Source: Deltaproteobacteria bacterium
GTDB lineage: Bacteria > Desulfobacterota > Syntrophia > Syntrophales > UBA2210
DNA: 45,236 nt
Direction: 5' to 3'
Assembly: GCA_019313695.1 (NCBI GenBank)
Contig: JAFDAS010000006.1
Coordinates: 1 to 45,236, forward strand
Under the pieces are notes generated by a model. The model saw only the letters and a list, made by a program, of their open reading frames with translations, made no database searches and had not been told where the DNA came from. This document shows positions 41,372 to 45,236 of this stretch, piece after piece. The position numbers were made by a program, and so were the translations under genes. Each line of letters starts with the position of its first letter. The first letter of the stretch is position 1.

Positions 41372-42427
41372 TTAAAGATTAGTTAAATACCACTTATACG
41401 TCTTTTCTATGCCTTTCTCAAGGGAAGTTTTTGCGGCCCAGCCTTTGTTTTGGATTCTGGAGATGTCGAGCAGTTTTTGCAAGGTGCCGTCCGGCTTTGT
41501 GTTGTCCCATTCTATCGAGCCGCGGTAGCCCACGATCTCCGATATCATCTTCGCCAGTTCTTTTATGGTGATGTCTGTGCCGGCGCCGACATTGATGAAT
41601 TCGCCGATATCTTTCGCGTCATAATTTTCCATGAGAAAGACGCAGGCATCAGACATGTCATCCGCGTAGAGGAATTCTCTTTCCGGTTCTCCGGTGCCCC
41701 ACAGGGCAACCCTGTCCTGATGGATGCCTGATCCTGACAGGTGCCCGCTAATCAGCACAGGATTATCGGACGAACCGGAGGGCAGGCAGTTCCCGAATTT
41801 TTCAAGGTCGCTGTTAATGGCCTTGTAATCTTTTTGTGAAAGGAGTTTCGCCAGGTGCAGCTTGCGTATCAACGCGGGCAGAACATGTGATGTTTCAAGA
41901 TCGAAGTTATCATTCGGGCCGTAGAGATTTGTAGGCATGACTGACATGAAATTCGTCCCGTATTGTTCGTTGTAGTATCTGCACAGCTTTATCGCCGCTA
42001 TCTTCGCTATGGCATAAGGTTCGTTCGTCGGTTCCAGCTCCGATGTCAGGAGATATTCTTCCTTCAGTGGCTGTGGGGCGGACCTGGGATAGATGCAGGA
42101 AGATCCGAGGTTCAGGAGCTTTTTGACTCCATATTTATGAGAGGCATGGATCACGTTGGCCGCTATCATTGTATTTTCATAGATGAACTGGGCCGTGTAT
42201 GTGCTGTTGGCCAATATGCCCCCGACTTTTGCCGCGCACAGAAAAACGTGTTCGGGCCGTTCCTTTTCAAAGAAGTCTTCGACATCCTGCTGCCTCGTGA
42301 GGTCAAGCTCCTTGTGAGACCGGCAGATGAGATTTTTGCACCCGTTCGCTTCAAGCCTTCTTCTGATGGCGGAACCCACCATGCCGCGGTGACCGGCGAT
42401 GTATATCCTGTGGTCTGTCTGATTCAT
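41372..42427 (-). CDS. fcl: GDP-L-fucose synthase
   Basis: 351 residues. Rossmann motif [14 protein letters not shown], substrate region [20 protein letters not shown] with the catalytic Ser, and Tyr-x3-Lys in [17 protein letters not shown]. It epimerises and reduces GDP-4-keto-6-deoxymannose to GDP-fucose. Compared with E. coli Fcl there is an insert of about 35-40 residues between [11 protein letters not shown] and [20 protein letters not shown] recall similar inserts in a bacterial subfamily, so this is probably native. No gmd (GDP-mannose dehydratase) gene is in the window. Its stop codon overlaps the ribosome site of the UDP-glucuronate decarboxylase gene. Confidence 0.93.
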
Positions 42428-42441
42428 AGTTTTCAGTTTTT

Positions 42442-42456
42442 AGGGGTCAGACCCCT
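42442..42456. repeat. Short REP-like palindrome AGGGGTC-A-GACCCCT
   Basis: A perfect 7+1+7 palindrome, 15 bases upstream of the fcl start. GGGGTCAGACCCC is a form often seen in REP elements linked to Y1 (RAYT) transposases. It occupies the spot where a ribosome site or promoter would be expected. Confidence 0.5.
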
Positions 42457-42542
42457 TTTCCCTTCTTATTATGGTGTCTAATTTTTACCGCTAACCATTT
42501 GAAAAAAATTAATTTCCCCTGAAATTTCCTTTCGATTCATCC

Positions 42543-42601
42543 CCCTAACGGGCTCTTCAGCCGCGCGGCTTTTTGCGCCGGCTGCAAGAGCAAGGTTAGC
42601 T
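42543..42601 (-). other. attC-like integron recombination site
   Basis: Read on the minus strand it starts AGCTAAC and ends CGTTAGGG, matching the RYYYAAC and GTTRRRY core boxes at six of seven positions each. Between them GCTCTT-G-CAGCC pairs with GGCTG-AAGAGC, leaving a single extrahelical G and an apical GC-rich loop. CTAAC/GTTAG, an unpaired central spacer and one bulged base are the hallmarks of attC hairpins. The site overlaps the stop codon (TAA) of the gene ending at 42596, exactly where an attC lies relative to its cassette gene. Judged by eye; no covariance search was possible. Confidence 0.65.
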
Positions 42602-43204
42602 ATCTTTATTAATGATCGTTCTCCAAAACCTACTATCGTTTAGGTCAGGAAGCTTTAGCTCATCATACAATTCCTCAAACAGAACGGCTGCCTTTGCAGC
42701 ATCAAACCCATATTGTATTGTTTTAAGCCATAAGCACTTCACGTATGTGGTCGCAGCTTGTGAAACTAAGGATGCTTGAATTGTAATAGGAACCGCTTCT
42801 CTCATCACAGCACCACTTCTGCTCCCTATATTTTCTCTTGTGAAAGACAATGATGTTAAGGTTGTGTAAGTTGAATGTGCCATTCCTGATAAGATTCTAT
42901 ACAGTTTTTCTCCTCCGAATTGCCTCTCAACCAACGAAATTATATTAGGCTTTTTTTGGCCTATACCAATTCTACGATTATTCTTATCGCGCACCAATTC
43001 GTAACCTAAACTTATAGCTATTTTCTCTATATTTTCTATTCGTTCTTCAATTCTCTGTATCAATGCACTATCACGATCATATCGCGCCATTTTGATCTGT
43101 TCAGTCAATGAGGCATATCTGATAGATAGACTTCTGCTTACACGTTCTTTGGGATCGATGGTTTTGTCAAATAGCCATGTGCTGATAGCTGCAGCTTCAA
43201 TCAT
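42596..43204 (-). CDS. Unknown protein, probable integron cassette gene with 5' end cut by an IS
   Basis: 202 residues from the first ATG at 43204, but the frame stays open upstream to the IS boundary at 43259, adding DTLVDHKIFSVAPWSCARG. That extension reads like native protein: APW..ARGMIEAAAISTWLFD is a plausible conserved helix. So the IS has probably removed the true N-terminus. The protein looks helical and soluble, with a charged central stretch (RIEERIENIEKIA) and no catalytic motif I recognise. AT-rich codon use differs from the polysaccharide genes next door, consistent with transfer. It ends in an attC-like site. Function unknown. Confidence 0.65.
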   Translation of the reverse strand: MIEAAAISTWLFDKTIDPKERVSRSLSIRYASLTEQIKMARYDRDSALIQRIEERIENIEKIAISLGYELVRDKNNRRIGIGQKKPNIISLVERQFGGEKLYRILSGMAHSTYTTLTSLSFTRENIGSRSGAVMREAVPITIQASLVSQAATTYVKCLWLKTIQYGFDAAKAAVLFEELYDELKLPDLNDSRFWRTIINKDS

Positions 43205-43440
43205 GCCTCTCGCACAAGACCATGGGGCGACAGAAAAAATCTTATGGTCAACTAAGGTGTCTAGCGTGAGTTTATTACGAAATCACCCCCAGCAGATCTA
43301 CATGCCCACATTTACTCAATGATATCCACGTGTTACGGCAATCACAAGTCCCCGGAAAATGTATACACTGATAAAATCAGCGCATTGCTCCTATCTACTA
43401 TAGAATATAAGCATAAAGTAGAATAATGTGAAAATAATAC

Positions 43441-43470
43441 TTGACAAAATAAGGTGGCAACATGTAATGT
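43441..43470 (+). promoter_or_regulatory. Transposase promoter
   Basis: TTGACA (43441-43446), an 18-base spacer and TAATGT (43465-43470), immediately before the transposase start at 43481. The resulting leader would be only a few bases, consistent with the absence of a ribosome site. The 160 bases between the left terminal repeat and this promoter contain no gene. Confidence 0.55.
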
Positions 43471-43480
43471 ATACACCAAT

Positions 43481-45162
43481 ATGGCAACCATACAAAAGAG
43501 GAAATCCAGAGGGAAAACATATTGGAGCATTGTTGAGTCTCGCAGAGTCAATGGCAAGCCACGACCCATTATTTTGGAGTATCTTGGCACTGCAAGGTGC
43601 AAAGCTACAGTCATGGCGCCGTCGCTGTTATGTTGAACATTGCCGAGGAGTTTAAAATTGTAGAAACAATCAATAAACATTTGAAGACCAAACCTTTCAG
43701 GGATGGTTTCACTGTTGGCGGATCCTTATTATTGGCTGCCATTGGAAGGGTCTGCCAGCCGACAAGCAAACGCAACTGGCATGAAGGATGGGCCAGACAT
43801 ACAAGCCTTTCCTATCTTCTTCGAATGTCTTTGAGCAAATTGGACAGCCAGCATTTTTGGGATCAGATGGAAGCCCTGCCCACCGATGTTATTCCATTTA
43901 TGGAACAGGATATTATTGCGAATTTACTGGAAAAAGAGAAAATTTCACTGGATGTTTTGCTGTGTGACACTACCAACTTTTTCACTTATATCGATTCTGC
44001 AAATCACAGGTGTACTATTGCTCAAAGGGGAAAGAACAAACAAAAGAGGACGGATCTGAGACAGCTCGGTCTGCTACTTCTTGTTTCCCGTCAGGATCAG
44101 ATTCCCATATTGCACAAGATTTATCAGGGCAACTTACAGGACAAGACGGTTTTCAAGGAAAATTTCACCGATATTTTGAATCGGTTTAAGGCCATTTGCG
44201 GTTCTTTGGAAGAGATAACACTTGTGTTTGATCAGGGTAATAACTCCAAAAAAATGCTGAAGGAGGTAACCGGTCAGATACACTTTGTCGGGGCATTGTC
44301 TCCATATCATCATAAGGACTTAATAAAAGAGGCCAATAATTCAATGAAAAGCGTTTCGATAAATGGAAAGGATGTATTGTGTTATCGCACCCGCAAGGAG
44401 ATATGGGGGCTGGATCTTTCAGCAGTCGTATATATTTCGGAAAGATTGCTCAAAGGACAAATCAGGGGCATTGAGCAGAACATAAGAAAACTATTCAACA
44501 AACTCAGTGAATTAAAAGAAAAGATTGAGATTCCCACCAAAAGGGGCAAAAAAAGAACAATGGATGATTTAAAAAAGAAAATATCATCCATGATAAGTTC
44601 TTTGAGCAATGAAGATATTATCGGCTGGGAACTCAATCATATTGCAGAAGATGCCTTTGACCTTAAGTTTTGGATAAATGAAGAACGGTTCAACATGATT
44701 AAAGAACAATGGTTGGGAAGAAGAATTGTAGCAACGAACCGCCATCAGTGGACCACCGAAGAGATTATCCTGGCTTATTGGGGACAAGCAAATGTGGAGG
44801 CTGCTTTTAAAAAAATGAAAAATCCTTTCCATTTAGCAGTAAGACCACAATATCACTGGACAGACCAAAAAATAGAGGTTCATGGATTTACTTGTCTTCT
44901 TGCTTTCCTTATGGTTATGATAACCTATAAGAGGGCAAAAGAAAAAGTCGGCTTCCAGGGTTCACCGCATACTTTGTTAGAAAAACTTTCCGCTATCCGG
45001 CTTGCAACATTTATTGAGAGTCCACCACAAAAAACTAAGGGGCGATACAAGGCCCACTATCGTCTTGAAGAAATGGATCCTGATATCTACGAACTTGCCA
45101 AGGGTATGAATTTAACGGAAATGAAATTGAGAACCAGAATACCTTTCAGTGTATACAAATAA
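43481..45162 (+). pseudogene. IS1634-family DDE transposase, frame-disrupted
   Basis: The N-terminal frame (43481-43636) reads MATIQKRKSRGKTYWSIVES through RRVNGKPRPIILEYLGTA, the conserved beginning of IS1634 transposases. The rest is in another frame from about 43597 (QSYSHGAVAVMLNIAEEF onward, 521 codons). It includes the DDE core (LLCDTTNFFTY, TLVFDQGNNSKKML, and the late GQANVEAAFKKMKNPFHLAV glutamate region). About 12-16 residues normally linking LGTA to the SYSHG block are missing, at a spot with the direct repeat TGCAA-GG-TGCAA. So a small frameshifting deletion is likely, and the copy may be inactive. Confidence 0.8.
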
Positions 45163-45236
45163 TCTGCCTGTTTATGCTTATATTTTCATTATGTTATACA
45201 CGTTTATGCCCATGTGCTTAATAAACTCACGCTAGA

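Follow-up and report, generated by a model that had tools for sequence, protein, structure and literature searches.

The window analyzed here, a stretch of 45,236 nucleotides that makes up an entire contig (C30) of the draft genome of a Deltaproteobacteria bacterium in the order Syntrophales, carries close to its right edge a genuine attC site, at positions 42543 to 42601 on the minus strand, with putative recombination activity. In the reading we consider likely, this attC belongs to a lone integron cassette, which an integron integrase (IntI) joined to an attI-like site between the genes gmd and fcl, one of a dispersed set of such sites that have no integrase gene of their own. The cassette, with a gene of the DUF5677 family, is of a known kind; it is the scattered, integrase-less attI copies that are the unusual part, and that would be new.

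The attC assignment draws on a covariance model, on folding and on a structural score. Read on the minus strand from 42601 to 42543, the letters are AGCTAAC-CTT-GCTCTT-G-CAGCCG-GCGCAAAAAGCCGCG-CGGCTG-AAGAGC-CC-GTTAGGG, and they divide into the R'' box (42595-42601), the L'' box (42586-42591), an extrahelical G (42585), an inner stem (42579-42584 against 42558-42563) that encloses a variable terminal structure (42564-42578), the L' box (42552-42557) and the R' box (42543-42549). An earlier note on this DNA had described CTAAC...GTTAG core boxes on the minus strand, an imperfect hairpin with a single bulged G and an overlap with the stop codon of a gene, and every part of this description was borne out. 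The boxes AGCTAAC and GTTAGGG each agree with RYYYAAC and GTTRRRY at six of seven positions; L'' and L' pair with each other, the spacers stay unpaired, the single bulged G lies on the R''-L'' arm, and the hairpin has a terminal loop (folding z of -2.6 on the minus and -3.5 on the plus strand). The stop codon TAA of the cassette gene, at 42596-42598, falls inside the R'' box. The structural score is 25.7, against 19.4 for the second-best site of the window, and in 452 kb of shuffled control only one site reached 22 or more. The covariance model (R1), a check the same note had called for, was trained on 12 attC sites from elsewhere with the window site left out; it scores the site at 72.1 bits (E 2e-23) on the minus strand, against 24.5 bits for the plus strand, and ranks it first among the 22 matches that it has across the genome at E <= 1. 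Rfam at gathering thresholds returned only a tRNA over the window; we know of no attC family in that collection. One usual trait is different, since the extrahelical base is C on the bottom strand and G on the top strand, while in most described attC sites it is a G on the bottom strand (PMC2727003). The bottom-strand G is a usual attC trait and no strict requirement.

The site belongs to a family. A blastn search with the cassette end retrieved similar hairpins from contigs C10, C68, C119 and C281 of this genome, and also from further genera of the order. In their alignment the core is CAGCCGACGCAAAAAGCCGCGCGGCTG or a variant of it with CAGCGG; the L arms covary, changes in one being compensated in the other, and the bulge always stays on one side. 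Column 16 of that alignment (A2), the extrahelical base of the family, shows G or T and a single C on the top strand; on the bottom strand most members thus have C or A where G is usual. Matches to R1 at E <= 1e-4 occur in 36 of the 60 genomes searched. A plain terminator or REP element, whose recurrence elsewhere in the genome the note had counted among the signs against its reading, is rejected, because the recurrences examined are attC sites at cassette ends. The one exception, a pattern match at C281:6391, is a coincidence within protein-coding sequence.

Three kinds of context tie this attC family to real integrons. In the relatives G007 (contig C61), G044 (C24) and G028 (C55), its members stand in arrays divergent from an intact intI. 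The plasmid pHRM2a of Desulforapulum autotrophicum HRM2 has four sites of the family at about 77 bits. Finally, in the class 1 integron of the E. coli JML285 plasmid NZ_AP024115.1, the attC of the last cassette (L206:2988-3043), located between a SAM-dependent methyltransferase gene and qacEdelta1, is a member at 70.2 bits with R1, and its extrahelical G is likewise on the top strand. This class 1 cassette differs from ours in its gene and in its setting, an array with intI1 and qacEdelta1-sul1. The shared attC family suggests that cassettes of this bacterial group may have reached mobile integrons; with a member in a class 1 integron carried by E. coli of human origin, the group becomes a possible source of mobile-integron cassettes. 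On pHRM2a the sites lie in a duplicated stretch (41479-53535, L205) together with recombinase, toxin-antitoxin and MerR-family genes.

The gene that ends in the attC is broken. Its 3' part occupies 42596..43264 on the minus strand (the open reading frame of the window being 42596-43204), where it is interrupted by an insertion sequence of the IS1634 family at 43265..45231 on the plus strand, recognized by its NCBIfam match, its inverted repeats and its flanks. The transposase is encoded at 43597-45162 on the plus strand (transpos_IS1634, 245 bits), and CTAG at 43261-43264 and again at 45232-45235 is the probable target duplication. There is one full copy of the element in the assembly and a second end on contig C128, the end of which overlaps the IS end of the window by 114 bp. 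Beyond the IS, C128 has the missing N-terminus of the cassette protein, in frame, as a 5' part of 66 codons (C128:4567-4764, L039), followed by the left boundary of the cassette. The two contigs would join across the IS, on the basis of overlap and homology and not of reads. The contig edge had been taken for the kind of IS that often ends a repeat-rich array; instead the IS has split the cassette gene, and beyond it the genes of the sugar operon continue.

The same note could name no family for the cassette protein, a detail corrected here. The frame matches DUF5677 of Pfam weakly and under the cut-off (E 5e-4), and has no match in PADLOC and no informative one in NCBIfam. Its full-length homologue in G151, a genome of a different family and the only one in which a homologue was found among 155 genomes of the order, passes the DUF5677 cut-off with 30.9 bits against 27.1. 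The two proteins are 60% identical, and both halves of the broken gene align without a gap to the unbroken homologue, with two residues between the halves. The homologue is followed by an attC of its own, different in sequence from that of the window. In two lineages, then, this type of DUF5677 gene occurs as a cassette gene, each time with an attC unrelated to the other. No relatives of the cassette were found in GTDB contigs, viral contigs, plasmids or phages, and the AlphaFold model made from the single sequence was unusable (pLDDT 43.6). With a single gene, its TAA in the R'' box and a left end at G|TTAGC on C128, the unit has the form of a gene cassette. The central suggestion of the note, a gene cassette and its attC away from any integrase, is upheld by the covariance-model match, the family membership, the homologous cassette elsewhere and the intact IntI of relatives.

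The neighborhood leaves room for one cassette and no array. On the right of the cassette lies a gene of the GDP-L-fucose synthase type, fcl (41372..42427, minus strand), named from its open reading frame by homology and gene order; its relatives are 64-93% identical, those at 80-93% being found in Syntrophales and Deltaproteobacteria MAGs. Its usual partner gmd is on the other side, on C128, where, past the cassette, an AbrB/PIN pair is followed by gmd, then by a UDP-glucuronate epimerase-type gene and by hemL (the last three named from their sequences). Relatives have gmd and fcl close together (at a distance of 32-33 bp in G003, G004 and G012), with a short spacer or one that carries other inserts; an exact empty site was sought in the relatives and was not found. 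The extension onto C128, together with the adjacency of gmd and fcl in relatives, indicates a lone cassette inside a sugar operon. Neither the window nor C128 has a further attC or an intI, so the proposed extension past the contig edge speaks against the attC cluster the note had offered as one option, and agrees with its integrase-less part. An attC array continuing past the edge is ruled out by C128. In terms of known systems, the locus resembles the attC sites of chromosomal integrons and CALINs as treated by IntegronFinder 2 (PMC9024848) in its boxes, its one-sided extrahelical base, its unpaired spacers, the stop codon in R'', the cassette gene and the lack of a nearby intI. It differs from a CALIN, for which the default limit is two attC sites without intI, in having one attC and an attI-like site at the left, and from a complete integron in having no intI.

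The spacer between gmd and fcl may be an insertion hot spot, given that different inserts are found upstream of fcl in other relatives. The AbrB-like/PIN pair, a probable toxin-antitoxin, lies within it to the left of the attI-like site (L039:3720-4387 on C128). Its inserts are flanked by palindromes of the GGGGTCTGACCCC type (42442-42471 in the window; L039:3600-3625 and 4394-4420 on C128), which stand beside the inserts upstream of fcl in G005 as well and recur elsewhere in the genome.

The left boundary of the cassette lay outside the sequence available to the note. Directly before the cassette, C128 reads AAAGGCGGATATCATTACAAAGGTGATGATATCCATATCCGCTCAATAACTTG|TTAGC, and blastn shows the sequence up to this point to be a repeat of about 57 bp. 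At least eight copies are present in this genome in unrelated contexts, some of them on contigs that could be contaminants (estimated contamination of the draft, 4.2%). In the search of 154 genomes there are five more full-length copies in four relatives (G002, G032, G062 and G146) and one partial match; plasmids and IMG/VR gave none. Over the 50 bases before the crossover point, the mean pairwise identity of 13 copies is 0.74-0.94; it is 0.85 in the last 10 bases before G|TT, then drops to 0.39 and to about 0.25 after it. The repeat is, in other words, conserved up to G|TT and followed by different cassettes, as is expected of an attI. An attC lies downstream at the window locus, on C151, C108 and C105, and in three relatives (G032:C38, G062:C315 and G146:C47), and none was detected downstream of several other copies. 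In this genome three of seven copies have an attC within 1.5 kb, for which the chance probability is about 5e-6 (with the rate taken from about 20 distinct sites). A second attC at the left boundary was considered and rejected, there being no conserved R'' box and no attC match. The boundary bears the marks of a candidate attI, even though no intI was found in any of the contexts examined.

The same repeat bears on where the cassette could have landed. Insertion by IntI into attG sites of the chromosome is established, as Loot et al. 2024 is cited in PMC12444791 and PMC12901181, and such insertions resemble ours in placing a cassette in an ordinary chromosomal position away from intI. If the cassette had gone off target into a chance site of this type, its left repeat would be unrelated to integrons; however, attG insertions, as cited in PMC12444791, use diverse genomic sites, while the repeat found here stops at the crossover in the 13 places compared, at G|TT in most of them, with an attC after several and at the chance level just given. 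A random attG target is disfavored by this repeated left boundary, and we regard the explanation as very improbable. Slightly less so, yet still improbable, is a small mobile repeat of the MITE or REP kind that merely happens to stand beside cassettes and is no attI. A short unit, abrupt left ends at several loci, the internal palindrome GGATATCAT..ATGATATCC and the copies that have no detectable attC downstream would all fit such an element. What it leaves unexplained is the right end at G|TT in most copies, the cassettes that follow several of them, and the partial resemblance of the repeat to the spacers beside intI on C215 of this genome and in G028. Between the broken intI of C215 and its first cassette, 37 of 53 positions are identical to the copy on C59 and 34 of 53 to the copy at the window locus, a likeness that none of 20,000 shuffles equaled. 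A sequence model of the repeat (R2, built from nine copies) matches the intI-cassette spacer of G028 at E 5e-4, over 28 positions only, and has no match on C215.

Every recognizable intI in this genome is broken or partial. The copy on C52 is in two reading frames with its N-terminus missing, that on C215 is damaged and cut by the contig end, and C38 and C182 have fragments only. Two genomes of this genus, G005 and G002, have intact IntI, as do many further ones of the order, and an intact copy may be missing from the draft, which is fragmented into 282 contigs and 95% complete. The frameshifted gene on C52 (L020:480-1420) lacks its first ~20 codons and runs, without a change of orientation, into a sequence that resembles the spacer between intI and cassette in G005; as a rearrangement this is odd. 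Such decay is what would be expected had a complete platform of intI, attI and cassettes once occupied the gmd-fcl interval, and likewise the other sites, with intI then deleted in place to leave attI and one cassette; on C215 a broken intI does lie beside a related attI-like sequence, and loss of this kind is the proposed origin of CALINs (PMC8618304). No trace of intI, however, accompanies any attI-like copy examined, and the copies on C198, C151 and C108, with 96-100% identical cores and unrelated upstream flanks, would require many integrons each trimmed close to attI. We consider this history rather unlikely, if the most serious of the competing ones. As to the origin of the orphan sites, as leftovers of lost integrons or as pads spreading on their own, we lean to insertion of the cassette into an orphan site that already existed; the two origins overlap, as an orphan attI-like site may itself be an old remnant.

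Under the favored reading, an integrase encoded elsewhere in the genome, or by a gene since lost, would have recombined the folded attC of a circular cassette, carrying the DUF5677 gene, with the attI-like site between gmd and fcl. The crossover would be at G|TT, and the outcome in the sugar operon would be the order attI-like site, DUF5677 gene, attC. Later the IS1634-family element would have broken the cassette gene, and the recognizable intI genes of the genome would have decayed. Since the gene is broken and the integrase genes have decayed, the cassette is probably a relic that would no longer move.

Integrons are described with one attI beside intI. The attI-like repeat resembles the attI of an integron in being conserved only to the left of G|TT, in having cassettes on the right and in the GTTRRRY-like R box of most copies; it differs in its many copies per genome, none of them beside intI. 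Lone cassettes, CALINs and attG insertions are already known (PMC9024848, PMC8618304 and PMC12444791). The literature searched gave no description of orphan or multiple integrase-less attI copies in one genome, and absence there is no proof. If at least eight such copies are present, with cassettes after four or more of them, the landing pads themselves would have spread, and some lone chromosomal cassettes would be accounted for as orderly insertions and not as off-target events. More tentatively, this Syntrophales lineage might have a distributed integron, in which many short integrase-less attI sites over the chromosome are served by an integrase in trans and receive one or a few cassettes each. 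If true, cassettes would be placed inside ordinary operons and not in one array.

The attI-like copies are not all of one type. Those on C105, C59 and C241 (L178:3830-3990, L202 near 6800 and L201:3370-3517, respectively) have a longer leader in common, and the TTGACA...TATTCT in the leader of the C105 and C59 copies could be a cassette promoter.
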